Origin: Arthrobacter sp. KBS0703
Lineage (GTDB): Bacteria; Actinomycetota; Actinomycetes; Actinomycetales; Micrococcaceae
Assembly: GCF_002008315.2 (NCBI RefSeq)
Contig: NZ_MVDG02000002.1
Location: 283,232 to 347,231 of the forward strand
Reading direction: 5' to 3'
Length of the DNA: 64,000 nucleotides
The notes under the pieces are model-generated. The model was not told where the DNA came from, searched no databases, and saw only the letters and a list, made by a program, of their open reading frames with translations. The position numbers were made by a program, and so were the translations under genes. Positions 2,764 to 64,000 of this stretch are shown piece after piece (the stretch's first letter is position 1; every line of letters starts with the position of its first letter).

Positions 2764-3979
2764 TGCGCGTCGCCTACATATGCGCCGATCCCGGCGTCCC
2801 CGTCTTCGGCACCAAAGGATCCTCCGTCCATGTCCAGGAGATGGTGCGCGCCTGGCGCAGGGCCGGGGCCGACGTCACGGTGTACTGCGTCCGCGCCGGA
2901 AACGACAAGCCGGCCGACCTCGGCGGGCTCGACGTCGTCGAGCGGCCGCCCCGCAAGGCAGAGCCTGCCGGGCGGGAGCGCGCGGTCGAAGAGGCGGCGT
3001 ACTCGCTCGGTGACACTGCCCTGCGCGACGGCTGCGACGTGGCCTACGAACGTTATTCGCTGTTCAGCCCTGCTCTGTCCTTGGTGGCCGGCACGCTGGG
3101 GGTCCCGGCCGTCCTGGAGGTCAACGCTCCGCTGATCGAGGAGCAGCAGCGGTACCGCCAGCTTTTTGATGTTGGCCTCGCCGAGTCGATGCTCCGCCGG
3201 AACGCCCTGGCTGCCGACGCCGTGGCCTGCGTCTCGGAGCCCGTGCTCCGGTGGGTGAAGCAACGTGTTCCCGAGGCCAGGACCGTGCTGGCGCCGAACG
3301 GCGTCAACACCGACCGGATCACCGCCCGGCCGTGGGAGCGGCCGGGCGGGCGCCCCGGGCGGCCTGGTTCCGGGCGTTTCGTGGTGGCGTTCACCGGCAC
3401 CCTCAAGCCGTGGCACGGCGTCCCGGACCTGCTCGAGGCGGTGGCCCGGGCCAACGCTGACCCGGACAGAGCGGGCCTGTGGACGGTACGGATCATCGGC
3501 GACGGGCCGGGCCGGCCGGACCTCGAACGGCTCGCCGCCCGGCTGGGCGTGGAGGCCGAGTTCACAGGAGCGGTGCTGCCAGAGTCCGTGCCGCGCCTGC
3601 TGCACGAGTGCGACGCCGCCGCGGCACCGTATCCGCAGCCGGAGCCGGGCCAGGACCACTACTTTTCGCCGCTGAAGGTATACGAATACCTGGCAGCGGG
3701 CATGCCGGTGATCGCCACGGCCGTGGGCCAGATTCCCGCCGTCATCGAGCACGGCCGCACCGGGCTAATGGTCGCCGCCGGCGATCCGGCGGCGTTCGCC
3801 GCCGCCCTGAAACGTCTGGCGTCAGACGCCGCGCTCCGGGAACGGCTGGGCACCCAGGCCCGGGCCGCCGCCTGTCTCTTATACACATCTAGATGTGTAT
3901 AAGAGACAGCAGCTGGGACGGCGTGCTTTCGCTGATCACCGCGGCGCTGGCATCCCGGCAGGAGGTGGCCCGATCATGA
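2763..3979 (+). CDS. glycosyltransferase family 4, interrupted by adaptor sequence
   Basis: A second GT4 enzyme starts at ATG 2763 with MRVAYICADPGVPVFGTKGS. It carries the donor-domain markers FTGTLKPWHGVPDLLEA and EYLAAGMPVIATAVGQIP. The frame is broken at 3872 by 38 bases of Nextera adaptor. Removing exactly 3872-3909 leaves 1179 bases, an exact number of codons. The frame then reads on as SWDGVLSLITAALASRQ to a TGA at 3977-3979, giving 392 residues. The Ser-Trp-Asp-Gly-Val ending is usual for this family. The stop overlaps the ABC exporter start as ATGA. The gene is therefore almost certainly intact in the organism. Confidence 0.85.
3872..3909. other. Nextera mate-pair junction adaptor (artefact)
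   Basis: CTGTCTCTTATACACATCT (3872-3890) is followed directly by its reverse complement AGATGTGTATAAGAGACAG (3891-3909). This is two Tn5 mosaic ends back to back, as left by circularised Nextera mate-pair libraries. There is no payload and no 9-base target duplication, so it is not a transposon. It splits a glycosyltransferase gene whose frame is restored by its removal. Confidence 0.97.
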
Positions 3980-7183: not shown

Positions 7184-8367
7184 ACTGGCATCCTCCCGTA
7201 CCGCGCCGCGTCACCGACCCCGCAGGAAATGAGTGGCTGGTGGGCCGCGCGTGGCCCGGCGTCTCGGCAGGCCGGTATGTCCTCGAGGTTCACTCACCCG
7301 GCTATCCCGGGGTGCTGGGCGGGTTCTTCCGCGAAGGCCGGTTTGTCCCGGTGTCCGCGGACGACTCCAAGCTGCCCGCCCTCGCACGGGAGTCGCCCAA
7401 GGGCGAAACAGTGGTCCACCGCGCCCACAAGCGTGCAGTCCTCCGTGCCGGCGACACGTACATCAAGGTGTTCCGGCCTGAACAGGCGCCTGCGGCGGCC
7501 ACAAATCACGTGTTGGCCACGGCACCCCTGGCCGGCGGCCGCTTCAGGACACCGGTCATGACCGCAACCCGGCCGGACGTCCTGGCGTTCAGCCGCGTGG
7601 CCGGCCGGTCCTACTACGAGCTCGGCCAGGACCAGGCCACCGTCAGTGACGGCTTCTTTGCCGGCATGTGGGGTGGCTGGTCGCGGGCGTGGACGGAAAC
7701 TGTTGCCCGCGCCAACAGCTCCGCTTTCCGCGGCAATCTGGAGCAGCTTCCGCTGCGCGATGCCGAAGAAGAACTGGCCAAAGTGCGGCGGTGGATGGAT
7801 CGCTGGCTGCTCCACAGCGAAGGGATCCCCGAGGCCGCACCGGGACGCGCTGCACTCATGGCACAGGTCGATGCCGTAAAGGCCGGTCTTTTGGCCGGGC
7901 CCCCCGATCCCCTCGGGTGGTCGCACGGAGACCTGCACGACAAGCAAATACTGGGCACGGATAGCGCCGGAATGGGCATCGACAACACCGGAGCGCCGGG
8001 CCTGCTGGACTTCGATGAAGCGTGCAGGGCCGAGGCCGCCCTGGACCTGGCGAACCTGGACGTGCACCTGGAACTGCGGCGGAGGCAGAACCTGCTTACA
8101 GCACGGCGGTTTGCGGCGGCCCACGCGAGTATCGTGTCCGCGGCAAGCCGCCTGCACGTCAGCCCGGAACGGTTCGAGGCGTATGCCGCCTCCGCGCGGC
8201 TCCGGCTGGCCTGCATTTACTCCTTCCGCCCGCCGTGGGGATCCTGGGCGGTGAGATACCTGACATCCATGGACCTGGTTTCGCCGGAGCTGCGCCGATC
8301 CCCCGGACGCCGAGCAGCCGGGCGCGAACCTGTCCCGCTCTTGAGCACAGAACGAAGCCTGACATGA
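7180..8367 (+). CDS. second APH-fold phosphotransferase
   Basis: This 395-residue protein starts at ATG 7180 in an ATGA overlap. The catalytic loop WSHGDLHDKQIL gives the Asp of the HGD motif and the downstream Gln. GLLDFDEACRAEAALDLANL gives the DFD metal site and the usual following helix. The N-terminal part is diverged from classical antibiotic kinases. Two such kinases side by side with glycosyltransferases and an exporter suggest phosphorylation of a carbohydrate or lipid intermediate rather than drug resistance. That role is inference. It overlaps the dehydrogenase gene as ATGA. Confidence 0.75.
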   Translation: MNWHPPVPRRVTDPAGNEWLVGRAWPGVSAGRYVLEVHSPGYPGVLGGFFREGRFVPVSADDSKLPALARESPKGETVVHRAHKRAVLRAGDTYIKVFRPEQAPAAATNHVLATAPLAGGRFRTPVMTATRPDVLAFSRVAGRSYYELGQDQATVSDGFFAGMWGGWSRAWTETVARANSSAFRGNLEQLPLRDAEEELAKVRRWMDRWLLHSEGIPEAAPGRAALMAQVDAVKAGLLAGPPDPLGWSHGDLHDKQILGTDSAGMGIDNTGAPGLLDFDEACRAEAALDLANLDVHLELRRRQNLLTARRFAAAHASIVSAASRLHVSPERFEAYAASARLRLACIYSFRPPWGSWAVRYLTSMDLVSPELRRSPGRRAAGREPVPLLSTERSLT

Positions 8368-9977
8368 GCAATTCCGCATGGGGAGATTACGTCGCCCCGT
8401 CCGTCCCGCCGTCGTCCGTTCCCCCCGCCCCTGCTGACGTGACCGCCACCGCCGCCGGCCCGTCCGGAAACGGCAGCGGGCCGTCAGGGAACGGTACCGG
8501 CCCGTCCGCAAACGGGGCCCATCCGTCCTCCAACGGCAGCGGGCCGTCAGGGAATGGTACCGGGCCCGCGGGAAACGGCACGGCCCCCGCCGGCCTTTCC
8601 CTGTCCGTCATCGGGACCGGGTATCTGGGCACCACGCATGCCGTGTGCATGGCGCTCCTGGGCCACCGTGTGGTGGGAATCGACGTCGACGAGGCCAAGG
8701 TCGCGGCGCTTTCGCGCGGCAAGCCGCCGTTTTTCGAACCGGGCCTCAAGAAGCTCCTGCGGATCATGCTGGAAAGCGGCAGGCTGACGTTTACCAGCGA
8801 TTTCTCCGCGGCCCGCGGCGCCGACATTCACTTCGTGTGCGTCGGCACCCCGCAGGAGGCAGACTCCCCGGCGGCCGACCTCCGCTTCGTGGACGCGGCG
8901 CTCGCCCGGCTGGCCCCGCACCTGGACCGGCACTGCCTGGTCGCGGGAAAGTCCACCGTCCCGATCGGCACGGCGGAACGGCTCACGGAGTTCGTCCGCG
9001 CCAGCTCCCCCGCGGGCAGGCTCGCGGAGCTGGCCTGGAACCCGGAGTTCCTGCGCGAAGGGCATGCGGTGGAGGACACCCTGCACCCGGACCGGCTGGT
9101 GTTCGGTGTTGCATCCGAGTGGGCACGGGACCGGCTCGCGGTCTGCTACGCGCCGATCATCGCGCAGGAGACTCCGGTGGTGGTCACGGACCTCGCCACG
9201 GCCGAGCTGGTCAAGGCCGCCGCAAATTCCTTCCTGGCCACCAAGATCTCCTACATCAACGCGATGGCGGAGGTGTGCGAGGCGACGGGCGCCGACGTCA
9301 ACGACCTGGCCAGGGCGCTCTCCTACGACACCCGCATCGGCGGCCGGTTCCTCAAGCCGGGCCTGGGCTTCGGCGGCGGCTGCCTCCCGAAGGACATCCG
9401 CGCCTTCACCCACCGGGCCAGGGAACTCGGCGTCGGGCAGGCTGTGGGGTTCCTGCGGGAGGTGGATGCCATCAACCAGCGGCGGCGCCAGCGCACGGTG
9501 GATCTCATCACCGAGATGGCCTGCGGGGACCTGGCCGGCGTGCGGGTCACCGTCCTGGGCGCCGCCTTCAAGCCCGACTCGGACGACATCCGCGACGCTC
9601 CCGCCCTGGATGTTGCCCGCATGCTCCATCAGGCCGGGGCCAGGGTGACCGTGTACGACCCCAAGGCCATGGACAACGCCCGCCGGAGCTACCCGGACCT
9701 GGCCTATGCCGGCTCGCTGGAGGCCGCTGTGACGGGCGCCGAGATCGTGGCGCTCCTGACGGAATGGGACGTGTTCCGGCGTGCCGATCCGGCCGCGCTG
9801 GGCGAACTGGTGCAGCTGCGGAACATCGTGGACGGCCGGCACGCGCTGGACGCCGACGCCTACCGGGCCGCCGGCTGGGACTACCGCGCCCTCGGAGCTC
9901 CCACCCGCCTGCCGGCGCGGACGCAGGCATCCCGGCGGCTTGAACCGGCGCCAAGGGACGCGTCACTGGGTGTTTAG
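8364..9977 (+). CDS. UDP-glucose 6-dehydrogenase family protein with repeat N-terminus
   Basis: The enzyme would make UDP-glucuronate (or a related uronate) from the UDP-hexose with two NAD. The Rossmann motif SVIGTGYLGTTHAVCMALLG begins near residue 78. The catalytic Cys lies in FGGGCLPKDIRAF, and the C-terminal UDP-binding part has VTVLGAAFKPDSDDIRDAPA. The 537-residue length exceeds the usual 430-460 because of an N-terminal extension with six seven-residue repeats of the Gly-Pro-Ser-Gly-Asn-Gly type (residues 32-73). The ATGA start overlap ties it to the exporter operon. It probably supplies an acidic sugar donor to the three transferases. Confidence 0.88.
   Translation: MSNSAWGDYVAPSVPPSSVPPAPADVTATAAGPSGNGSGPSGNGTGPSANGAHPSSNGSGPSGNGTGPAGNGTAPAGLSLSVIGTGYLGTTHAVCMALLGHRVVGIDVDEAKVAALSRGKPPFFEPGLKKLLRIMLESGRLTFTSDFSAARGADIHFVCVGTPQEADSPAADLRFVDAALARLAPHLDRHCLVAGKSTVPIGTAERLTEFVRASSPAGRLAELAWNPEFLREGHAVEDTLHPDRLVFGVASEWARDRLAVCYAPIIAQETPVVVTDLATAELVKAAANSFLATKISYINAMAEVCEATGADVNDLARALSYDTRIGGRFLKPGLGFGGGCLPKDIRAFTHRARELGVGQAVGFLREVDAINQRRRQRTVDLITEMACGDLAGVRVTVLGAAFKPDSDDIRDAPALDVARMLHQAGARVTVYDPKAMDNARRSYPDLAYAGSLEAAVTGAEIVALLTEWDVFRRADPAALGELVQLRNIVDGRHALDADAYRAAGWDYRALGAPTRLPARTQASRRLEPAPRDASLGV
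8457..8582 (+). repeat. six in-frame 21-bp repeats in the dehydrogenase gene
   Basis: Six consecutive 21-base units (8457, 8478, 8499, 8520, 8541, 8562) encode GPSGNGS, GPSGNGT, GPSANGA, HPSSNGS, GPSGNGT and GPAGNGT. Units 2 and 5 are almost identical in DNA. The array forms a flexible, Asn- and Ser-rich linker ahead of the Rossmann domain. Confidence 0.9.
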
Positions 9978-18687: not shown

Positions 18688-19905
18688 ATGCGCATTGTGA
18701 TCGCGCCGGACAAGTTCAAGGGCTCGCTCTCCGCCCCGGACGTCGCCCGGCACCTTGAGGAGGGGCTGCACGCCGGCTTCCGCACCGCGGGGCCGGGCCC
18801 CCTTGAGGTCCTGCGGATTCCCGTGGCCGACGGCGGTGAAGGCACCCTGGATGCCGCCGTCGGCTCCGGCTTCACCCGCCGCAGCGCCGTGGTCAGCGGC
18901 CCCACCGGGCGGCCGCTGACGGCGGAGTTTGCGGTCCGCGGGCGGGAGGCGGTCATTGAGATGGCCGCGGCCTCCGGGCTCGCGGTCCTGCCCGGCGCCG
19001 GCGGGACCGGCGGACCGGACTCCGCTACCGCGAAGGCGGCCACGAGCCTGGGCACCGGCGAACTGATCCGGGCCGCGCTCGACGCCGGCTGCCGGCAGAT
19101 CATCCTGGGCGTCGGCGGCAGTGCCAACACCGACGGCGGCGCGGGAGTCCTGCAGGGCCTCGGCGCCATCCTGTTCGACGCCGCCGGCAACGAACTGCCG
19201 CCCGGCGGCGCCGCCCTGGCCGACCTGGCCAGCATCGACTTCTCCGGCTTCGACTCCCGCCTGGACGAGACCCGTTTCATCCTCGCTAGCGACGTCGACA
19301 ACCCGCTGCTCGGCCCCGAAGGCGCCGCCGCCATCTTCGGCCCGCAGAAGGGCGCCACCCCGGCGGACGTGGCAGCCCTGGACGGCGCTTTGGCCAACTT
19401 CGTGCACGTCCTCGCGGACGAAATCGGGCCGCGGGCACTGAGAGCCGCGGACGCTCCCGGCGCGGGAGCCGCCGGCGGCGTCGGTTTCGCAGCCATCGCC
19501 GTACTGGCCGCGACCCGCCGTCCGGGCATCGACGTCGTGCTGGAATTCACCGAGCTGGCGGACCGGCTGGCCGGCGCCGACCTGGTGATCACCGGCGAAG
19601 GCAGCCTCGACGAGCAGAGCCTGCTGGGCAAGACGCCCATGGGCGTGGCCCGCGCGGCGGCGCTGGCCGGGGTCGCCGTGATGGCCGTCTGCGGCCGCAC
19701 CACGCTCACGCCCGAACAGCAAAAGATGTGTATAAGAGACAGGGTCTACCCGCTGACCGCGCTGGAGGCCAAGGTAGATATATGTATAGCCGAAGCGGCG
19801 TCCCTGCTTGAACAACTGGGAAAGAACATCGGCCTGGAGCTGGCGGAGACGGCCAACGCCGCCCCAGCCAACAGTGCCCGCACAAAGGAGCCCCTGAATG
19901 TCTGA
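18688..19905 (+). CDS. glxK: glycerate kinase (damaged by adaptor near the C-terminus)
   Basis: This is a GK1-type kinase making phosphoglycerate from glycerate. [37 protein letters not shown] and [12 protein letters not shown] are family motifs. After [11 protein letters not shown] the frame reads KMCIRDR, the translation of a single Nextera mosaic end (19724-19742), before VYPLTALEA. The frame is kept, so about six or seven native residues were replaced. The next bases (19771-19790) are unusually AT-rich for this gene and may also be wrong. The 3' end overlaps allB by eight bases. Confidence 0.9.
19724..19742. other. single Nextera mosaic end (artefact)
   Basis: AGATGTGTATAAGAGACAG, one 19-base mosaic end, lies inside the glycerate kinase gene. 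Unlike the other four sites there is only one copy, so this looks like an untrimmed read end used to close a gap. Confidence 0.95.
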
Positions 19906-21252: not shown

Positions 21253-22056
21253 ATGGCTGTCCACGCCCATACGCCCGCCCCGAGGATGCGGTGCGCGCCG
21301 GCTCCGGGGGTGGCTCGGAGTGCGCCGTCGCGTCAGGCGCCGTCGTTGAAAGCGCCGTCGTTGAAAGCGCCGTCGTTGAAAGCCCGGGGCCTGGCCGTTT
21401 GGGTAAACCTCGGGGCAGGGCAGGAACTCGATGAAGCCGTACTGGCCCGCGCCGCCGAACTCGTGCTGGCGCGCGCCCTGAAGATTGCTCCGGAGGCGGA
21501 AGTCCACTGGCCTGCCGCCGGAGCTGCAACGTCCGACGTCGGGATGTCACCGGCCGGCACGCCCCCTGGGGAGGGGGCACCGGCCGGTCCCGGCGGCGGC
21601 ACTCCCGCGCCGTCGTCGTCCTCCACGGAGGACCCCCCGCACACGGACGACGACCTGTCTCTTATACACATCTAGATGTGTATAAGAGACAGCCGTCGCC
21701 CGGGCCGGTAAGCCGGGTGGCCGTCGACCTCGCCGCGGGCGAGGTGCTGCTGGACGGCGGGCGCGTGCCGCTGACCGGCGTCGAGTTCAAGCTGCTGCGC
21801 TACCTCGTGGAAAACTGCTCGCGCGCCATCGGCCGGGAAGAGCTGCGGCTGTTCCTGGAATCGTTCGACAGCCCGGGCGCGGCCACCCGTTCCATCGACG
21901 TCTACGTGGGCCGGGTGCGGCGGAAGCCTGTCTCTTATACACATCTAGATGTGTATAAGAGACAGGCACGCGATCGCCACCGTGCGCGGCGGCGGCTACC
22001 AGTTCATCCCCGGCCCGGCGGCAACAGTGCGCGGCCCGGCGGAATACAGCATCTAG
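21253..22056 (+). CDS. winged-helix DNA-binding regulator with two adaptor insertions
   Basis: The C-terminal half is an OmpR/PhoB-type winged helix: LTGVEFKLLRYLVEN, SIDVYVGRVRRK and ATVRGGGYQFIPGP. The N-terminal half is Ala/Pro-rich without a receiver Asp, so this is not a standard response regulator. Two 38-base adaptors interrupt it. The first (21655) falls exactly between codons and its removal leaves the frame intact. The second (21928) replaces some bases: after removal the frame is off by one, so 3n+1 bases are missing between VRRK and the HAIATVRGG segment. The stop is TAG 22054-22056. Role unknown. Confidence 0.75.
21337..21381 (+). repeat. three tandem 15-bp repeats
   Basis: GCGCCGTCGTTGAAA occurs three times without change (21337, 21352, 21367), encoding Ala-Pro-Ser-Leu-Lys three times in the linker of the winged-helix regulator. 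Perfect identity suggests recent slippage or an assembly fault. Confidence 0.9.
21655..21692. other. Nextera mate-pair junction adaptor (artefact)
   Basis: Two mosaic ends lie back to back (21655-21673 and 21674-21692). They sit between codons of the winged-helix regulator; cutting them out joins Asp-Asp-Asp to Pro-Ser-Pro in frame. Confidence 0.97.
21928..21965. other. Nextera mate-pair junction adaptor (artefact)
   Basis: Two mosaic ends lie back to back, only 235 bases after the previous copy. The small piece between them is bounded by adaptors on both sides, as expected for a short read fragment patched into a gap. Some native bases of the regulator gene are missing here. Confidence 0.97.
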
Positions 22057-41142: not shown

Positions 41143-42841
41143 GCGTGCCCCTGGCTGGCGTGGGCAGATAAGAACTGTGCTCACGCTTGCTTTCCGGCTT
41201 TGGCTCTGGGGGCGCAACGCTCCGTCGCGCCGGCGACCCGCTCCTGCGGCGACGATACCCCCGCTGTGGCTTGGTCGGTTGCGCGGGTGGGGCTGGCTGT
41301 TCAGGTTGGCTGGACCCGGGCAAGGGAGGTGCCGTGGAACGGTAGTTTTGGCCGGTCGGGGTGCGGAGTTCGATGGCGTGCCGGGGGCCGGGCGCGGGTT
41401 GGGCTTTCCATCCGGGGAGTTCTTTGGTGTGATTGCAGGCCTCGCACAGCCCGGCCGCGTTTCCGAGACTGGTGGTTCCGCCCTTGTGCCACGGTACGAC
41501 GTGGTCGTGATGGCGGATGGGTGCGTCACAGTACGGGGTGCGGCAGGTGTCATCACGGGCCTCGATGAAGCGCCGCAGCCCGGCTGGGAACAGTCGTGCC
41601 CGTGAATCCATGGCGACGAGGTCGCCGGTCCCGGGTGCGGTGTACAGCCGGCGAAGCCAGGTCCTGAGCTCGTGATCGTCCTCCTTCCGGCCCTGCGCCC
41701 GGGTAAGCAGGTGGCGGGCCCAGCCGGCCGGGACGGTGCCGTACCCGGGTAGCCGGGCCGGCTCGCCATCGCCTTGGAAGAGGGTGCGGTCGGTCATGAC
41801 GAGCTGGATCTCCACGCCCGAGATTCCCCCGGGGGTGCCCGTAGTACGTTCAACCAGGGCGTCGGCCATGACCTGTCCACGTGTCCGGTCATCCCCTTCG
41901 GAGCGAAGGCTGTCGGCGTGCCGGCTGAGCGCGGCATGCACGGCGACGCCCTGCGCGACGGGCAGCAGGGCTGTCAGGTAGGTCATGGTGTCCGGTGCCG
42001 GGCGAAGGCTGACACACCGCTCCTCAGCGGCGCGACCGGCCCGTTGGGTGACGGAGCGGGGGTCCCGGCGGTAGGACGCGGCCCTAACCGCCGCGGTGAT
42101 GGCGCGGTCCCCGACCCCGGCGAAGGTCCCTGTGTCGGGAGCGAGTTCGTCGTCGACGGCGCACCGGTCGGCCGCGGACAGGCATGCTGTCTCCTTGACG
42201 ATCACGGTGGCACGCCATTCGTTGAGCTGCCCGCTGTCCAGGGCGGCCAGGGTGTGCGGCATCTCGGTCACGAGGGCCTTGGCGAGGCCAAGCTGGCGGC
42301 TGCCGCGGCTGGGCGATTCCCGGCGGGCGAGGGCGATCTGCGCGGCCACGCCCTGGCCCCGTTCCGCGACGGGGACCCCGGCCGTGGCCTGTCTCTTATA
42401 CACATCTAGATGTGTATAAGAGACAGCGGCAATCCTTGCCTGCAGGCCGGCGCCCACGCACTTCAGGACCTCCAAGCCAGCCAGCTGCTCGATCAGCCCG
42501 GCGCTGTCCGGGCTGATCTGCAGCGAACCCGCCGCAGCAATCAGGTCTTGAACACTGGCACAGGACCCAGCGGAGCTGGACGCATAGGTGTTCGAGGCGG
42601 CGTCATCGGCAAACGCGGCCTCGGGAAACGCAGGGCCCGAAAATGCGGCGTCGGGGAAAGGGTCCTCTGGAAAGGTGGGGTCTGAAAACACGATGTTCGG
42701 GTCAGAGTCATATGGATAGCTGTCATCCGGGAACGCGTCGAATGAAAACCCGCCGTCCGGAAAAGCGGCACCGGGAAGAGCGCCGCCTGGTGGCGGGGCT
42801 ACCAGTCTCAACTCCGACTCCCGAATGTTGTTCATAGACAC
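41036..42841 (-). CDS. DUF222/HNH endonuclease-like protein with adaptor insertion
   Basis: The central DUF222 region ([35 protein letters not shown]) and the C-terminal HNH nuclease ([34 protein letters not shown]) define a family abundant in actinobacteria. The start is GTG 42841 or ATG 42835. The first 85 residues are unusual, with repeated Phe-Pro-Asp/Glu units. At 42426-42389 a 38-base adaptor replaces what should be about 15 residues between ARIAA and [11 protein letters not shown]. The C-terminus runs on into antisense luxR; another frame ends as AKAGKQA at 41181, so a late frameshift is likely. Confidence 0.75.
42389..42426. other. Nextera mate-pair junction adaptor (artefact)
   Basis: Two mosaic ends back to back, translated as [11 protein letters not shown] on the - strand within the HNH protein. 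The frame stays open because native bases were lost with the insertion. Confidence 0.97.
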
Positions 42842-51757: not shown

Positions 51758-51796
51758 CGACGGCGACACTCCGGACTTACCGGGGTGTCGCCGTCG
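51758..51796 (+). terminator. terminator hairpin after dmg (copy 1)
   Basis: A 15-base stem (51758-51772 with 51782-51796, one G-T pair) closes on a nine-base loop, 22 bases after dmg. A near copy lies at 52280-52318. Confidence 0.8.
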
Positions 51797-51828
51797 TCGT
51801 GGGGTCCAACAGGGGTCAGCAGGCTCAG

Positions 51829-52149: not shown

Positions 52150-52279
52150 GCGTGCACATCCCCCAACACACCAATTTCGGAACCGTTTGTTCGAGTGTTG
52201 CGGAGGTGCCTCAACTTCCGGTCAAGGCGGTCCAAGGATTTGCCCAATTCCGCCGTCCTGACCCTTTTTGCCAAAAAAA

Positions 52280-52318
52280 CGACGGCGACACTCCGGACTT
52301 GCTGGGGTGTCGCCGTCG
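52280..52318. terminator. terminator-like hairpin (copy 2)
   Basis: This has the same stem as at 51758-51796 with two changes in the loop, preceded by a seven-A run at 52273-52279. The A-run would be a T-run on the - strand, so it would serve best for - strand transcripts. Confidence 0.75.
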
Positions 52319-52403
52319 TTCTGTGGTCAAACAGGGTCAGCAGGGCTGCGGCTGCCGAAATTTAGGTCTTCCCTTGGCTGAGTGTGCCATGTACCATTTC
52401 ACA

Positions 52404-55630: not shown

Positions 55631-56536
55631 ATGACTGAAACCCGCAAGGCCTGGCACGGCGTACTCGTCGCCACAGCGCTGCCGTTCAAGGACGATCTCA
55701 GCATCGACTACGACGCCTACGCTGAGCATGTCCGTTTCCTGGCCAACGCAGGCTGCGACGGCGTAGCCCCCAACGGCTCGCTGGGCGAGTACCAGACGCT
55801 GAGCGAAGAAGAGCGCGCCCGCGTGATCACGACTGCGGTCGAGGCCGCGCCTGAGGGCTTCACCGTCATGGCCGGCGTGGGCGCCTACGGCGGGCTGCAG
55901 ACGCAGAAGTGGGCAGAGCAGGCCGCCGAGGCCGGCGCCAAGGCGCTCATGCTGCTTCCCCCGAACGCCTACCGCGCCAACGACGACGAGGTGGTGGACC
56001 ACTTTCGCCGCGCGGCCGCCGTCGGGCTGCCGATCGTGGCCTACAACAACCCCATCGACACCAAAGTGGACCTGACTCCGCAGCTCATCGCCCGCCTCCA
56101 CGGTGAAGGCCTCATTGTCGGCGTCAAGGAGTTCACTGGTGACGTCCGCCGGGCCTACGAGATCAAAGAACTCGCTCCGGAGGTGGACCTCCTCATCGGA
56201 ACGGACGATACCGTCGTCGAAATGGGCCTGGCAGGTGCCGTCGGCTGGGTGGCGGGCTACCCGAACGCAATTCCTGAATCCACCCTCGAGCTCTACCGGC
56301 TCTCCACCTCCGGCGACGTCGCAGACCTTGAGCGGGCCCGGGAAATCTACCGCGACCTGCACTCCTTGCTTCGCTGGGACAGCAAGACGGAATTCGTCCA
56401 GTCCATCAAGCTGTCCATGGACGTCGTTGGCCTCCGTGGCGGCGCCTGCCGCCCGCCGCGCGGACCGCTCGCCCCAGACGTGCGGAACGCCGTCGTCCGC
56501 GACACCGAAGCAGCCCTCGCCAAGGGCTACAAGTAA
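55631..56536 (+). CDS. DapA-family aldolase/deaminase, probable pyrroline-4-hydroxy-2-carboxylate deaminase
   Basis: This is a 301-residue TIM-barrel lyase of the dihydrodipicolinate synthase family. The Schiff-base Lys is in LIVGVKEFTGDVRRAYE and the Tyr region is PIVAYNNPIDTK. NGSLGEYQTLSEEER replaces the Thr-Thr pair typical of true DapA. Among hydroxyproline-type genes it probably turns pyrroline-4-hydroxy-2-carboxylate into alpha-ketoglutarate semialdehyde and ammonia. The assignment rests largely on neighbours. Confidence 0.85.
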   Translation: MTETRKAWHGVLVATALPFKDDLSIDYDAYAEHVRFLANAGCDGVAPNGSLGEYQTLSEEERARVITTAVEAAPEGFTVMAGVGAYGGLQTQKWAEQAAEAGAKALMLLPPNAYRANDDEVVDHFRRAAAVGLPIVAYNNPIDTKVDLTPQLIARLHGEGLIVGVKEFTGDVRRAYEIKELAPEVDLLIGTDDTVVEMGLAGAVGWVAGYPNAIPESTLELYRLSTSGDVADLERAREIYRDLHSLLRWDSKTEFVQSIKLSMDVVGLRGGACRPPRGPLAPDVRNAVVRDTEAALAKGYK

Positions 56537-56826: not shown

Positions 56827-57828
56827 ATGAGAACCAGCCGCATCTTCCACGCCGTGGACTCGCATACCGAAGGCATGCCCACGCGAGTCATCACCGGCGG
56901 CATCGGGACGATCCCCGGCGCCACCATGGCCGAGCGCCGCCTGTGGTTCATGGAGAACAGCGACTGGATCCGCACCTTACTCATGACCGAACCGCGCGGC
57001 CACGCGTCGATGAGCGGGGCGATCCTCCAGCCATCGACGCGGCCGGACGCGGACTTCGGGGTGCTCTTCATCGAGGTGTCCGGTCTCCTGCCAATGTGCG
57101 GCCACGGCGCCATCGGCGTCGCAACCGTCCTGGTGGAGACGGGCATGGTGGAGGTTGTTGAACCGGTTACCACCGTGCGGCTCGACACCCCCGCCGGCCT
57201 GGTGGTCGCGCAGGTCGCCGTCAAGGATGGTCATGCCGAGTCCGTGACCATCCGCAACGTCCCCTCCTTCGTGGACCGCTTCGATGCCAAGGTGGAAGTT
57301 CCTGGGTTCGGTGCCGTTCCGTACGATCTGGCATTCGGCGGGAACTTCTACGCGATCGTGGACCTGGACAGCCTTGATTTGCCGTTCGAGCGCGAGCGCA
57401 AGGACGACCTGCTCAAGGCCGGATTGGCGATCATGGAGGCGATCAATGCCACGGATGAGCCCGTCCACCCCGAGCGCGACGATATCCGTGGCTGCCACCA
57501 CGTCTATCTCAAGGCGCCCGGCTCGACGGCCGAGCACTCCCGGCACGCGATGGCCATCCACCCGGGTTGGTTCGACCGCTCCCCGTGCGGTACTGGCACG
57601 AGCGCCCGTATGGCGCAGTTGCACGGGCGCGGCGAACTGGCCCTGGGCACCGACTTCGTCAACGAGTCCTACATCGGTTCCCGTTTTACCGGCCGCTTGG
57701 TTGAGGAAACGGAGGTGGCTGGCCGCCCAGCTGTCGTCCCCACCGTCACCGGCCGGGCCTGGCTTACCGGCACCGCGCAATATTTCCTGGATCCCACCGA
57801 CCCGTTTCCCGCGGGGTTCCTGCTGTGA
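56827..57828 (+). CDS. proline racemase family, probable 4-hydroxyproline 2-epimerase
   Basis: This is a 333-residue enzyme with both catalytic cysteines: Cys91 in LLPMCGHGAIG and Cys254 in RSPCGTGTSARM. A Cys pair marks racemases/epimerases, whereas dehydratases of the family have Thr at the second site. HAVDSHTEGMPTRVI is the family start. It would convert trans-4-hydroxy-L-proline to the cis-D form that the FAD oxidase downstream uses. AGGAGAAGG precedes ATG 56827. Confidence 0.9.
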   Translation: MRTSRIFHAVDSHTEGMPTRVITGGIGTIPGATMAERRLWFMENSDWIRTLLMTEPRGHASMSGAILQPSTRPDADFGVLFIEVSGLLPMCGHGAIGVATVLVETGMVEVVEPVTTVRLDTPAGLVVAQVAVKDGHAESVTIRNVPSFVDRFDAKVEVPGFGAVPYDLAFGGNFYAIVDLDSLDLPFERERKDDLLKAGLAIMEAINATDEPVHPERDDIRGCHHVYLKAPGSTAEHSRHAMAIHPGWFDRSPCGTGTSARMAQLHGRGELALGTDFVNESYIGSRFTGRLVEETEVAGRPAVVPTVTGRAWLTGTAQYFLDPTDPFPAGFLL

Positions 57829-58787
57829 ACCTTCCCTACTTCGATTCGACGGCGGTGCGAGCCGCCGCCCCTTGGACGACGGCGATCGCGGCCCTTGAGC
57901 ACGCGCTCCTGAACGGCGTTGACCCCGAGGACGACAGTCCACGGTTGTTCAGCCCCGCACCGAACGGCGAGTTCCTGCTCATGCCCGCATCAGGCCAGCG
58001 CTACAGCGGTCTCAAGGCGCTCACCGTAGCCCCTGCCAACCCGGTACGGGGGCTCGAAAAGATCCAAGGGGTTTACATCCTCTTCGATTCGGACACGTTG
58101 GCGCCGCTGGCCACAATGGACGGCAACGAACTCACGGCCATCCGAACGCCGGCCACCACGCTACTGGCCGTCAAACACATCCTGGCTTCGGCCCCCGAGG
58201 GCGCTCCCCGAAGGCACGAAAGCACCGAAAGAAACCGCGTGCTCGTGTTCGGCACTGGCGTCCAAGCGCTCAACCACCTCCGCGCGGCGCACGCCGTGCT
58301 CCCGGAGGCGGGCTTCGCCGTCGTCGGCCGGCGCCCCGAGCGGGTGGCAGCGCTGATCGGGCAGCTGGCCGACGAGGGCATCGAAGTCCGCCCGGGCAAT
58401 CAAAGCGAGGTGCCCGACGCCGATGTGGTGATCTGCGCAACCTCCTCCCGTACGCCCCTGTTCGACGGCGGTTTGGTTGCCCCTGGTGCCGTGGTGGCCG
58501 CTGTAGGCCAGCACGGCTTGGACGCCCGTGAAGTCGACGCCGGCCTTGTGCTGCGCAGCGACGTCGTGGTGGAGGGACGCGCCTCGGCACTACGCGAGGC
58601 CGGGGACCTGATACCCGCACGCAGCGCGGAGGAATGGGAAGCGATCCGTCCCGCCAACCTCCTGGACCTGGTCAAAGGAGAGTTTGAGCGCTCCCCAGGC
58701 AAGCCCTGCCTGTACGCAGGCGTGGGCATGGCATGGGAAGACCTCGCGACCGCTGCCGTGGTGTATGAAGGAGGCACCCGAACATGA
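57825..58787 (+). CDS. ornithine cyclodeaminase/mu-crystallin family, probable pyrroline-2-carboxylate reductase
   Basis: This is a 320-residue NAD(P)-binding protein. LVFGTGVQALNHLRAAHAV is the dinucleotide motif, and the substrate residues lie around DGNELTAIRTPATTLLAVKH. It starts at GTG 57825, overlapping the epimerase stop as GTGA. In hydroxyproline clusters such proteins reduce pyrroline-2-carboxylate to proline, serving 3-hydroxyproline use. True ornithine cyclodeaminase is less likely in this context. Confidence 0.85.
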   Translation: MNLPYFDSTAVRAAAPWTTAIAALEHALLNGVDPEDDSPRLFSPAPNGEFLLMPASGQRYSGLKALTVAPANPVRGLEKIQGVYILFDSDTLAPLATMDGNELTAIRTPATTLLAVKHILASAPEGAPRRHESTERNRVLVFGTGVQALNHLRAAHAVLPEAGFAVVGRRPERVAALIGQLADEGIEVRPGNQSEVPDADVVICATSSRTPLFDGGLVAPGAVVAAVGQHGLDAREVDAGLVLRSDVVVEGRASALREAGDLIPARSAEEWEAIRPANLLDLVKGEFERSPGKPCLYAGVGMAWEDLATAAVVYEGGTRT

Positions 58788-59509
58788 AATCCGCACAAGG
58801 AGTGCTTAACGTGCCAACCAACAACCAGCTACCGATCGCGCCGCTCGGCCGCCAGCACAGTCTCCGCGAGTCCGTCACCGAGTCCCTGCGCGCAGCGATC
58901 ATCGCCGGCACGTTAACGGAAGGCACCCTGTATTCCGCCCCCGCACTTGCCGCGGCATTTGGCGTCTCGGCCACACCGGTCCGCGAGGCCATGATGGATC
59001 TGGCCCGTGAAGGCCTGGTGGAAACACTGAAGAACAAAGGCTTCCGCATCACCGCCATGAGCGACCGCGAACTGGACGAGCTCACGGAAATCCGCCTGCT
59101 CCTCGAGCCGCCTGTTGTTGGCGACGTGGCCGGGGCGGTCCCGCCGTCGGGTATCAAGGTGCTGCGCTCCATGGCGGACGACATCGTGGACGCCGCGCGG
59201 GAAGGCGACCTCACTGCCTACCTTGCCTCGGACCGCATATTCCACGCCGAGCTTTTGCGGTACGCCGGCAACAACCAGCTCGTTGAGTTGGCTACCAGCC
59301 TTCGTTCCCGTACCCGGATGTACGGCCTTAAGATCCTGAGCGACAGCAACCGCTTGGCCGATTCCGCCCAGGAACACCACGAATTGCTCGACCTCATCGA
59401 AGCCGGTGATGGGCCAGCGGCTCAGGAATTCATGCGCCGCCACATTGGCCACGCCCGCGGTCTCTGGGCCACGGGCGAGAACGAGAAACCACAGGAGCAA
59501 CAGACATGA
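58784..59509 (+). CDS. GntR-family regulator of the hydroxyproline genes
   Basis: This 241-residue regulator has the winged helix APALAAAFGVSATPVREAMM and an FCD effector domain (RIFHAELLRYAGNNQLVEL, QEHHELLDLIEAG). ATG 58784 overlaps the reductase stop as ATGA, and its own stop overlaps the oxidase start the same way. It probably binds the shared sites at 52404 and 55547. Confidence 0.9.
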   Translation: MKSAQGVLNVPTNNQLPIAPLGRQHSLRESVTESLRAAIIAGTLTEGTLYSAPALAAAFGVSATPVREAMMDLAREGLVETLKNKGFRITAMSDRELDELTEIRLLLEPPVVGDVAGAVPPSGIKVLRSMADDIVDAAREGDLTAYLASDRIFHAELLRYAGNNQLVELATSLRSRTRMYGLKILSDSNRLADSAQEHHELLDLIEAGDGPAAQEFMRRHIGHARGLWATGENEKPQEQQT

Positions 59510-60690
59510 ACCCAGCGAGCGATGTGCTCGTCATTGGCGCCGGGGTTATCGGCGCCGCCACTGCTTATTTCGCAACTCAGCAGGGTCTCACCGTCACTGT
59601 CCTGGACAAGGGGCTCCCCGCCAGCGGCACGTCTTCCGCCTGCGAAGGAAACATCCTTGTCTCGGACAAGGAACTCGGTCCCGAACTCGAACTAACCCGC
59701 TACTCCCTTGGCGTCTGGCACGGCGACCTCGCTGAGCATAAGCGGCTTTGGGAATTCGAGTCCAAGGGCGGCATTATCGTCGCCTCCCGGGAAAGCAGCC
59801 TGGCATCCCTCAACCGTGTGATGGCTGCGCAAGCCAGTTACGGCGTTGCGGTGGAGAAGCTGGACCCGGACGCCCTGCGGAACGCCGAACCGAACATCAC
59901 CCCTGACGCCTTGGGCGGGGCGAGCTACCCCGAAGACTGCCAGGTCCAACCAATGCTGGTCGCCGCACATCTGGTTCGGCTGGCAACCGACGCAGGGGCC
60001 CGTTTCGTCGCCGACACCCCCGTCACTGGCTTCGTCCGGAGCGGAGACCGCATCACGGGTGTGAGGACACCTCGCGGTGACTTCTCCGCCGGTTCTGTGG
60101 TGAACTGCACTGGTACGTGGGCCGGCGAACTCGCCGCGCTGGCCGGGGTCAACGTCCCGGTCCTCCCCCGCCGCGGCTTCGTCATGGTCACGGAACCACT
60201 ACCGCCCATGGTTCACCACAAGGTCTATGCAGCCGAATACATCGATAACGTCGGCAGTTCCGACGCCGGACTCCAGGCCTCGCCGGTCGTCGAGAGCACT
60301 CCCAGCGGCACTATTCTCATCGGCTCAACGCGCGAACGCGTCGGTTTCGACCGCACCGTGAGCACCAACGCCCTTAGGCTCCTGGCGGGCAACGCCGTCG
60401 CACTGTTCCCCTTCCTTGAGCACGTCAAGGCCATCCGCCACTACCACGGCTTCCGCCCGTACTGCCCGGACCACCTTCCGGTGATAGGCCACGACGATCG
60501 CGCCCCCGGGCTGTGGCATGCCGCCGGCCATGAGGGCGCCGGAATCGGCCTCTCCGCCGGGACGGGCAAGCTCCTTGCCCAGGCGCTCTCCGGCCAGGCC
60601 CCGGACCTTGACCTTTCACCCTTCGCGCCGGCCCGCTTCGGCGAGCGAAAGGAAAACAGCACAACTCACCGAGAGGAGGCCACAGCATGA
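59506..60690 (+). CDS. FAD-dependent D-hydroxyproline/D-amino acid oxidase-type subunit
   Basis: This 394-residue protein is of the DadA/glycine-oxidase family. The FAD motif is DVLVIGAGVIGAATAYFATQ; GFRPYCPDHLPVIGHDDRAP and GHEGAGIGLSAGTGKLLAQA are C-terminal signatures. It is followed by a 2Fe-2S subunit and the first codons of a third subunit. This is the order of heterotrimeric hydroxyproline oxidase/dehydrogenase complexes. It would oxidise cis-4-hydroxy-D-proline. Confidence 0.9.
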   Translation: MNPASDVLVIGAGVIGAATAYFATQQGLTVTVLDKGLPASGTSSACEGNILVSDKELGPELELTRYSLGVWHGDLAEHKRLWEFESKGGIIVASRESSLASLNRVMAAQASYGVAVEKLDPDALRNAEPNITPDALGGASYPEDCQVQPMLVAAHLVRLATDAGARFVADTPVTGFVRSGDRITGVRTPRGDFSAGSVVNCTGTWAGELAALAGVNVPVLPRRGFVMVTEPLPPMVHHKVYAAEYIDNVGSSDAGLQASPVVESTPSGTILIGSTRERVGFDRTVSTNALRLLAGNAVALFPFLEHVKAIRHYHGFRPYCPDHLPVIGHDDRAPGLWHAAGHEGAGIGLSAGTGKLLAQALSGQAPDLDLSPFAPARFGERKENSTTHREEATA

Positions 60691-60998
60691 GCACCCATTC
60701 ATCAGGAGAGACCTGGCCGGTCAACACGCCGGGTGCGGTCAACGTGAGCTTCGACGGCCGTCCACTGGCCGCGGTACCAGGACAAAACGTCGGCGCTGCC
60801 CTGGTCTCCAACGGCATCACCGCCTGGCGCAGCACGCGCAAGAACGCGCGTCCCCGCGGACTTTTCTGCGGCATCGGCGTCTGCTTCGACTGCCTCGTAA
60901 CGGTCGACGGCGAAGCGAATCAGCGTGCCTGCCTCGTCGAGGTGCAGGAGGGCATGGAGATCGAGGGTTCTTGCGCGGATCAGGGAGGACGAGCATGA
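60687..60998 (+). CDS. 2Fe-2S subunit of the hydroxyproline oxidase
   Basis: This 103-residue ferredoxin-like subunit has the cluster motif FCGIGVCFDCLVTV plus a later Cys in NQRACLVEV. VNVSFDGRPLAAVPGQNVGA is the beta-grasp start. It overlaps the FAD subunit gene as ATGA and likewise the next, truncated, gene. It would pass electrons between the two flavin subunits. Confidence 0.9.
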   Translation: MSTHSSGETWPVNTPGAVNVSFDGRPLAAVPGQNVGAALVSNGITAWRSTRKNARPRGLFCGIGVCFDCLVTVDGEANQRACLVEVQEGMEIEGSCADQGGRA

Positions 60999-61028
60999 CG
61001 CCCATCGTCAGCGCAGACGTCGCCGTCG
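60995..61028 (+). pseudogene. first codons of the oxidase alpha subunit, cut off
   Basis: ATG 60995 (ATGA overlap) opens MTPIVSADVAV, the usual start of the NAD/FAD-binding alpha subunit, which should go on with a GAGPAG loop. After codon 11 the sequence changes to unrelated DNA. The missing part, more than 400 residues, is not in the window. The open frame that continues into rimP is accidental. Confidence 0.7.
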
Positions 61029-61336
61029 GGTCCATTTTCGGCCGGGAGGACCAACGCCCTGGCCTGCGTAGTCAGCAACGTCACAGTCCGCGAGAAAAGC
61101 TGCCGCTGGGCACCGGAAGCGCCCTCGGCAAGTTCGTGGCCCGCGGCCCGCAGCCGCATGGTTTCAGCCAGCGCCGAGGCGCGCGCCTGCTCGGAAAAAG
61201 GCGGTACGGCGGGGGCCGGAGCTTCGCGCGGAATCAGCGCAAAACCGAGACTCAACACCAGGAACGCGGTGAAGCAAAGCAGGGCATAGCGGAAAAAGTT
61301 CCGCGGCCTGCTGTTTTCCCTGGTGTCGTCTTTCAC
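61029..61336 (-). pseudogene. membrane-anchored protein gene truncated at the same junction
   Basis: On the - strand, GTG 61336 (in frame with an upstream ATG at 61411) starts a protein with the membrane segment FFRYALLCFTAFLVLSLGF near its N-terminus. A helical part follows (SALAETMRLRAAGHELAEG, RTVTLLTTQARALVLP). The coding likeness stops near 61029, where hydroxyproline DNA begins. Its place divergent from rimP matches a DUF4439-type gene often found there; that identification is from memory and unverified. Confidence 0.55.
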
Positions 61337-61441
61337 AACAGACCATGTTGTCACGGCCGGAAGGAACTCGGTGCACCAAGCCCGTCGGAAAATGGCTACG
61401 CTAGTAGTCACAACATCATCTATCGGGAGGCGGCCGGCATC

Positions 61442-62059
61442 GTGAGCAATGCAGAAGCCACGGCTTCATCAGACCGGACCGACGCGGGAAGGGCTGAACC
61501 CGCGGCAGTCCACAATCCCGAGGCTGAACGCCTCCGGGCCTTGCTTGAGCCCGCGGTTTTGGCGAACCGGCTCTACCTGGAGGATGTTGCCATCAACATC
61601 GCAGGCTCCAACCGCGTGGTCAACGTGGTGGTGGACCTGCCGCAGGAAGAAACCGGCGGGGTCAGCCTTGATGTCATCGCAGACATCTCCAAGGAGCTCT
61701 CCGACATCCTGGACGGCGATCCCAGCACCGACAGCCGTCCGTACGACCTTGAAGTCTCCTCGCCCGGCGTGGGCCGCCCCCTGACCGAGCCGCGGCACTG
61801 GCACCGCGCCCGTGGACGCATGGTGAGCGTCAAGGTCATCCAGGGCGAGAACGTCACCGGACGGATCCAGTCCGTGGACGAATCCGGAGTGACCCTCGTC
61901 CCCGAAATTGCAGTGAAAAAAGGCATGAAGCCGAAACAGGGCGACCCCGTAAAACTTCCTTTCGACAAGATCCGCAGCGGAAAAGTCGAAATTGAGTTCA
62001 GCCACCTCGACGAGGCCGGTCTGGAAAATGAACACAATGGACCTTCTGAGGAGGCCTGA
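61442..62059 (+). CDS. rimP: ribosome maturation factor RimP
   Basis: This 205-residue protein starts at GTG 61442. [40 protein letters not shown] and [20 protein letters not shown] are the family core. It acts in 30S subunit assembly. Its stop overlaps the nusA start as TGATG. It is the first gene of the conserved rimP-nusA-ylxR-infB cluster. Confidence 0.93.
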
Positions 62060-63036
62060 TGGATATTGACATGAGCGCACTGAGACTCCTGGAGCGTGAG
62101 CGCGAAATCCCGCTGGATCTCCTCATCCCCACGATCGAGCAGGCGCTGCTGGTTGCCTACCACAAGTCGCCGGGAGCCTTCGAGAAGGCCCGCGCCGAGC
62201 TGGACCGCAAGAGCGGCCACGTGACCATCTGGGCCACCGAAATCGACGACGACGGTGCACCCATCGGCGAGTTCGAGGACACCCCCGCCGGTTTCGGCCG
62301 CATCGCAGCCAGCACCGCCCGCCAGATCATCCTCCAGCGCCTGCGCGACGTCGAGGATGACAACGTCCTGGGCGAGTTCAAGGGCCGCGAGGGCGAACTC
62401 GTTGCCGGCCTGATCCAGCAGGGCAACAACCCCCACATGATCCAGGTCAACCTCGGCACGGTGGAGGCGCTGCTTCCGCCGCCCGAGCAGGTGCCGGGGG
62501 AGAAGTACGTCCACGGGAACCGTCTGCGCGCGTTTGTGATTGACGTGCACCGCGGCACCAAGGGTCCGTCCATCACGCTGTCCCGGTCGCACCCGGGCCT
62601 CGTGCGGAAGCTCTTCGAGCTGGAGGTACCCGAGATCGCCGACCACTCCGTGGAGATCGTTGCCCTGGCGCGTGAGGCCGGCCACCGCACCAAGATCGCA
62701 GTGAAGGCCAATACGCCCGGCATCAACGCCAAGGGTGCCTGCATCGGAGAAATGGGTTCCCGCGTGCGGGCCGTCATGACCGAGTTGAACGACGAAAAGA
62801 TCGACATCGTGGACTTCAGCGAGGATCCGGCGACGTTTATCGCCAGCGCACTGTCGCCTTCACGTGTGAATTCAGTCACCATCACCGACGAAGCGACCCG
62901 CTCGGCGCGGGTAGTGGTGCCGGACTACCAGCTCTCCCTGGCCATCGGCAAGGAGGGCCAGAACGCCCGCCTCGCTGCGAAGCTGACCGGCTGGCGGATC
63001 GACATCGTTTCCGACGCCGCCGCTCCCCGCGGCTAA
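62059..63036 (+). CDS. nusA: transcription termination/antitermination factor NusA
   Basis: This is a 325-residue actinobacterial-length NusA: N-terminal polymerase-binding domain, S1 domain (about residues 110-180) and two KH domains ([40 protein letters not shown]). The C-terminal acidic repeats of the E. coli protein are absent, as usual in this phylum. It overlaps rimP by one base. Confidence 0.96.
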
Positions 63037-63074
63037 AAGGACTCCTCCCCGGCTCGGCGCCGCCCGGACCGGCA

Positions 63075-63109
63075 CCGAAACTGCCCGCGATTGCAGCGGG
63101 CAGTTTCGG
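63075..63109 (+). other. 14-bp hairpin between nusA and ylxR
   Basis: CCGAAACTGCCCGC (63075-63088) pairs perfectly with 63096-63109 around a seven-base loop, 39 bases after nusA. There is no T-run. In a conserved operon it may be a partial terminator or a NusA-responsive attenuator. Confidence 0.7.
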
Positions 63110-63254
63110 GTGACAGGCCCCTGAGGGGCTAGAATAGAACATGACCGCGCCTCGCAGCCGGCATCAGCGTGCTTGTGTGCGCCCGCAAATTTGCCTCACG
63201 GCAGCAGCGGGCCGCCGGGCAAGCAGTTATGTATAGGCAGGAAGATACTCGACA

Positions 63255-63596
63255 GTGGCACACGTGCAACACCTCGGGAATCAGCCGCAACGTACCTGCA
63301 TCGGATGCCGGAAAAAAGGATCGCGGTCTGAGTTACTCCGGCTTGTCTCCGGCGCCGGCGGTTCGTCCGCCGTCGTAGTGGATGAACGACGCCGGATGGC
63401 TGGCAGGGGTGCATGGCTGCACCCCAGCGAAGCGTGCCTCGCACTGGCGGTCAAACGTCGAGCGTTCGGACGCGCCCTCAACGGCGCGACCGGAACAGCC
63501 GATGTTGAACGCCGGATCACGGCAGGCACGCAAGCCGTGGACACTCCGGTGGCCGCAGCAACAACCGTCCAACCTGAAAGCGGGTCAGAAAACTGA
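63255..63596 (+). CDS. ylxR: YlxR/RnpM family RNA-binding protein
   Basis: This 113-residue protein has RTCIGCRKKGSRSELLRLV and the family motif GRGAWLHPSEACLALAVKR. Bacillus RnpM of this family binds RNase P. The start is GTG 63255. A long 218-base leader separates it from nusA and includes the hairpin at 63075. The C-terminal 40 residues are variable. Confidence 0.9.
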   Translation: MAHVQHLGNQPQRTCIGCRKKGSRSELLRLVSGAGGSSAVVVDERRRMAGRGAWLHPSEACLALAVKRRAFGRALNGATGTADVERRITAGTQAVDTPVAAATTVQPESGSEN

Positions 63597-63747
63597 TGGA
63601 AACCCGATGAGTTCCCAGCGATGAGTGCGCAACGATGACAACTTTGTTGCGCTCTGCAATGGGCCTTTCAGCTGCACTCGCGGCGGAGGCCCGCAGTAAG
63701 AAGTAGACGGTTCGTGCCTGGCTCGGTGCGGACCGAGACAGGAGAAA

Positions 63748-64000
63748 TGTGGCCAAGGTCCGCGTACATGAGCTTGCTAAAGAGCTCGGTATCACTTCCA
63801 AAGATGCAGTAACCAAACTGCAGGAACTGGGCGAATTTGTTCGCTCCGCCTCTTCCACCATTGAGGCCCCCGTTGTGCGGAAACTCCGTAACGCCTTCCC
63901 CGACGCGACTGCTTCGAAGTCCGAAGCACCCGCATCCGCGCCAAAAGCACCGGCCAAGGCGGCAGAATCACGTCCCGCCCCGGCTCCCGGTCCCGCCGCC
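63748..64000 (+). CDS. infB: translation initiation factor IF-2 (start only)
   Basis: GTG 63748 after ACAGGAGA opens a frame with [20 protein letters not shown], the conserved IF-2 N-terminal helix motif. An Ala/Pro-rich linker follows and runs off the window edge. The GTPase domains lie outside. The 151-base leader 63597-63747 contains a small hairpin (CTCGGT-GCGG-ACCGAG, 63721-63736). Confidence 0.95.

Follow-up and report, generated by a model that had tools for sequence, protein, structure and literature searches.

The join near position 61028 of the window, where the beginning of a D-hydroxyproline dehydrogenase gene runs into the rimP region, is almost certainly false: our sequence comparisons argue for an assembly error, with the alpha-subunit gene split between two contigs rather than lost. 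The window is the whole 64,000-nucleotide stretch of Arthrobacter sp. KBS0703 DNA that was analysed, and it corresponds to C2:283232-347231, the final 64 kb of contig C2 (347,231 bases), in an assembly of 37 contigs and 4,860,540 bases in which contig C1 accounts for 4,420,187 bases. Only 2,972 bases separate the join from the end of the contig. A sequence-only reading of this DNA had left two alternatives, either that the assembler had joined two distant regions or that a real deletion had brought an accessory cluster up against the core translation genes, with loss of the oxidase subunit. The first of these drew support from three sides: the tail behind the join is a duplicate, the rest of the alpha gene lies at the end of C1, and relatives are colinear across the gap. 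In the true chromosome, C2 (the window up to 61028) would then be followed by about 141 unassembled bases and by the right end of C1, read backwards.

The same reading had put the cut at 61028, which proved to be exactly the last base that the window has in common with its closest relatives and is where the genuine C2 sequence ends. As it had noticed, the alpha subunit halts after 11 codons, and it is there that the window departs from the sequence of these relatives. Its second observation, that a neighbour of rimP on the opposite strand is cut at the same place, was also borne out: this minus-strand gene tracks its C1 version down to 61021 and departs there. Identity to C1 thus has its left limit at 61021 and identity to the relative Soil736 its right limit at 61028, the two limits overlapping by the eight bases CGCCGTCG, across which the cluster side and the C1 side are identical and to both sides of which they differ. 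The description of the point as free of adaptor and repeat held as well. With up to two mismatches allowed, no adaptor was found at 61028, the nearest half-sites in the window lying at 42389-42426, and no direct or inverted repeat of at least 20 bases was found in 60500-61600. A mobile element or repeat at the cut was also considered and rejected: besides the lack of such repeats, no tRNA was found in the 64-kb window, and the only DNA matches of 60600-61450 in the strain's own genome were to itself and to C1.

Table 1. Features of the window on both sides of the join, with the basis of each assignment (positions are those of the window).
Feature	Position	Strand	Basis or remark
Ring adaptor sites	3872-3909, 19724-19742, 21655-21692, 21928-21965, 42389-42426		Inside genes, as judged by eye
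DHDPS-family deaminase-type gene	55631-56536	+	Pfam DHDPS; role from position in the cluster and the available portion of PMC6608401
Hydroxyproline 2-epimerase-type protein	56827-57828	+	Pfam Pro_racemase; NCBIfam NF010578 at 361 bits, below its cut-off of 376
Ornithine cyclodeaminase/mu-crystallin family reductase	57825-58787	+	Pfam OCD_Mu_crystall
GntR/FCD regulator	58784-59509	+	Pfam GntR, FCD
D-hydroxyproline dehydrogenase beta subunit, DAO-type FAD protein	59506-60690	+	Pfam DAO (PF01266)
D-hydroxyproline dehydrogenase gamma subunit, 2Fe-2S protein	60687-60998	+	Pfam Fer2_4 (PF13510)
Start of D-hydroxyproline dehydrogenase alpha subunit	60995-61028	+	ATG at 60995, 11 codons and 1 base
Hybrid ORF, first part of the rimP-neighbour gene running into alpha-subunit DNA	60980-61411	-	Comparison with the C1 version
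8-base overlap CGCCGTCG	61021-61028		Common to the alpha gene and to C1:2394734 downwards; probable site of the false join
Probable false tail: first part of the rimP neighbour, rimP, nusA, small ORF, first part of infB	61021-64000	+	Duplicate of C1:2391757-2394734 (minus)
rimP, second copy from C1	61442-62059	+	NCBIfam RimP models
nusA, second copy	62059-63036	+	TIGR01953, above its cut-off
Small ORF in the tail	63255-63596

In its predicted products, the cluster to the left of the cut (Table 1) matches the three-subunit D-hydroxyproline dehydrogenase operon of Streptomyces coelicolor, as described in the available portion of PMC6608401. All three subunits show the expected domains, with a DAO-type beta subunit, a 2Fe-2S gamma subunit and an alpha subunit carrying Pyr_redox_2 (PF07992) and Fer2_BFD (PF04324), which Pfam finds both in the alpha part at the C1 end and in a full-length homologue (P0001). 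As far as that portion goes, S. coelicolor SCO6289-6293 and Pseudomonas aeruginosa LhpB/LhpE/LhpF show the same set of beta (DAO), gamma (Fer2_4) and soxA-like alpha (Fer2_BFD) subunits, which are likewise adjoined by an epimerase, a DHDPS-family deaminase and a GntR regulator. The arrangement differs in that the deaminase, epimerase and regulator come first here and that an aldehyde dehydrogenase gene follows alpha, whereas the same portion of PMC6608401 places the semialdehyde dehydrogenase gene of S. coelicolor away from the operon. No cluster protein attained the cut-off of any of the NCBIfam families listed, so their roles are assigned from Pfam domains and the order of the genes.

A repeat forming a very strong hairpin was seen in the same neighbourhood, at 51758-51823 and 52235-52347 of the window and at C1:4417075-4417185 (minus), with a z-score of -10.3 for 52252-52347. 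In the strain's own genome it was found only around the hydroxyproline cluster, with two copies on one side and one on the other; the long copies are 96% identical and point in the same direction when C2 and C1 are placed in the proposed order. This repeat may act as a terminator or mark the border of a segment that has moved.

The sequence-only reading had suggested searching the rest of the assembly for a contig beginning with the remainder of the alpha subunit, and this remainder was found at the end of C1. Using as query the 475-residue alpha subunit of a relative whose cluster is whole (G005), we found that residues 55-474 match, with 80% identity, C1:4418892-4420154 (minus), which lies 33 bases short of the end of that contig. 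BLASTP of the part encoded at the C1 end against the same protein gave an alignment from residue 57 to the end with 78% identity. The last 37 bases of C1 are 37 of the 38 bases of a ring adaptor, and the alpha gene begins immediately behind them, where it is followed by the aldehyde dehydrogenase gene; a similar ORF occupies the same place in G005. The existence of a contig end with the alpha remainder decides for the false join and against the deletion. Some 47 codons from the early part of the strain's own alpha gene are absent from the assembly: a search of the 37 contigs for the 141 missing bases gave nothing beyond related genes and short stretches of similarity (40 of 145 candidates scored).

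Neither of the two closest named relatives has the junction, and both run colinear with the order proposed here. Arthrobacter sp. Soil736 (L065) and ISL-5 (L064), with 96.6% and 96.9% identity to the window, each match it as far as 61028 precisely and pick up again in the end of C1, 141 bases of each being found in neither contig. When a 341-base piece of Soil736 was compared with the genome of KBS0703, bases 1-100 fell on C2, ending at window position 61028, and bases 247-341 on C1; its other matches in that genome had E values of 4e-4 or worse and lay at related genes (40 of 145 candidates scored). For two more distant loci (L098 and L066), the local matches end at 60975-60976 and resume in the same end of C1. 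Among the best 80 of 99 loci, all named, 71 have an unbroken stretch that codes for at least 90% of alpha, while seven of the remaining nine end with the fetched record and two (L121 and L129) give partial alignments in long loci; one of the 80 (L091) has an alpha subunit identical to that of G005. Neither rimP nor nusA was found in any of these 80 loci within the stretch fetched.

On the right side of the join, the window carries a second copy of sequence that is continuous elsewhere in the assembly. Over 2980 bases, the alignment of 61021-64000 with C1:2391757-2394734 shows no substitution and four single-base indels, all in homopolymer runs. C1 itself passes unbroken through the rimP locus, and a query made of rimP and its neighbour gene, run on 23 genomes including the strain's own, gave colinear matches flanking the break point on either side in all 15 other genomes of the same genus, several of the outer matches being short and weak (down to E 6e-4). 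The rimP product scored at best 147.6 bits with the NCBIfam RimP models, slightly below the cut-off of 150, and its stretch is identical in C1. In C1, the neighbour gene has the same start and continues into a 405-residue ORF whose later part matches DUF4439; one stretch of this ORF appears out of frame, so C1 may have errors there too.

Two points stand against a false join: no adaptor is present at 61028, and the two copies are not letter-identical, nusA keeping its frame in the C2 tail (open for 325 residues) while the C1 copy breaks after 159 residues through one missing base. The differing copies can be read as two real ones, yet the single-base homopolymer indels look like consensus error, and we read the nusA frameshift in C1 as such an error in C1. 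Near the start of infB, C1 has one extra base compared to the C2 copy; this and the nusA frameshift lie in C1 locus L003, around 7900-9300. C1 seems to carry consensus errors in essential genes.

The ring adaptor is frequent in this assembly. Exact half-sites occur 681 times (342 forward and 339 reverse; none for the reversed control) and the complete 38-bp adaptor in 251 places, four complete copies and one lone half-site lying in the window, while the 20 kb surrounding rimP in C1 showed none. Thirty-seven of 38 other genomes have no adaptor. The exception, a genome of the same genus (G014), has seven half-sites, five of which stand at the first base of a contig, on contigs C73, C118, C140, C172, C175 and C196. 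We take the 38-base sequence to be the Nextera mate-pair kit adaptor. An identical 38-letter sequence appears, in the available portion of PMC7357533, as the ring adaptor of a circularised library of about 4 kb. This mate-pair junction adaptor is thus present here exactly, and minus one base it caps the end of C1; the difference is its place, which is the end of the partner contig and, for a half-site, close to the opposite end of C2, rather than 61028. The translated adaptor motif was not found in the literature searched, although such contamination may nonetheless be published.

From these features, we infer that the assembly took in mate-pair reads still bearing the 38-bp ring adaptor and could not bridge the first portion of the alpha gene, where the C1 end would have been capped with adaptor. 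By way of the shared eight-base word CGCCGTCG, the end of C2 would then have been extended into C1 sequence situated about 2.03 Mb away from the end of that contig. It is possible, if less probable, that the error arose in the library instead, fragments having been ligated or template-switched through the eight shared bases at circularisation or PCR and the assembler having followed the chimera; this is a variant of the false-join explanation and compatible with it. The short overlap of eight bases at the join fits such an origin, although a lone chimeric molecule would rarely beat the true coverage except at a gap. Ring-adaptor libraries do circularise fragments by ligation, according to the available portion of PMC7357533.

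The other end of C2 is similarly affected, and both ends of this contig bear false extensions. C2:1-981, in the locus of the C2 start (L007), duplicates C2:3616 onwards, from which it differs by one substitution and four single-base indels. Behind it come half an adaptor (982-1000) and then a DNA polymerase family A gene that seems cut in its first part. This polymerase gene and the gene at the start of C1 are divergent and less than 2 kb apart in six of six complete relatives; with this neighbourhood, C1 and C2 are together consistent with a single circle. The gene at the start of C1 is presumably TadZ; it has no Pfam match, while its neighbour matches T2SSE. A separate plasmid was considered as a cause of the cut and rejected: the C2 end finds its continuation at one end of C1, and in the six complete relatives the gene from the C2 start adjoins that from the C1 start.

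A real second copy is very improbable. It would require at least 2.98 kb to have been inserted in the alpha gene with the loss of about 141 bases, the contigs stopping inside or beside the copy. It would fit with C2 reading into the copy and C1 ending on the far side of the same gap, and a single assembly leaves room for an insertion between these two ends. However, C1 is unbroken through the rimP locus and its end bears an adaptor cap in place of rimP or infB sequence. A similar false duplicate linked to adaptor stands at the opposite end of C2, no insert is present in the two closest named relatives, and the edge shows no repeat of at least 20 bases. We consider it equally improbable that the strain, or part of the culture, holds a very young real copy of rimP, nusA and the start of infB inside the alpha gene, at which the assembler broke on both sides. 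As for a real deletion that would have cost the strain its alpha subunit and placed the accessory cluster directly beside the core translation genes, it has practically no chance of being correct and can be regarded as refuted: only the junction as written in the window speaks for it, while the C1 end still carries the alpha remainder with the downstream aldehyde dehydrogenase gene, and in C1 the rimP locus runs through the break point, so that the DNA of both sides is still there and, of what would have been deleted, only about 141 alpha bases were not found.

The false join thus remains the reading that we retain, and the fused genes are no biological feature: this is an ordinary assembly error that holds no new biology. 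Taken at face value, the window would describe a strain that has lost a subunit of its D-hydroxyproline dehydrogenase and has two copies of rimP and nusA, neither of which is likely. Because of the 251 complete ring adaptors in the assembly and the frameshifted nusA in C1, calls of gene loss, pseudogenes or duplications made from this assembly need care.
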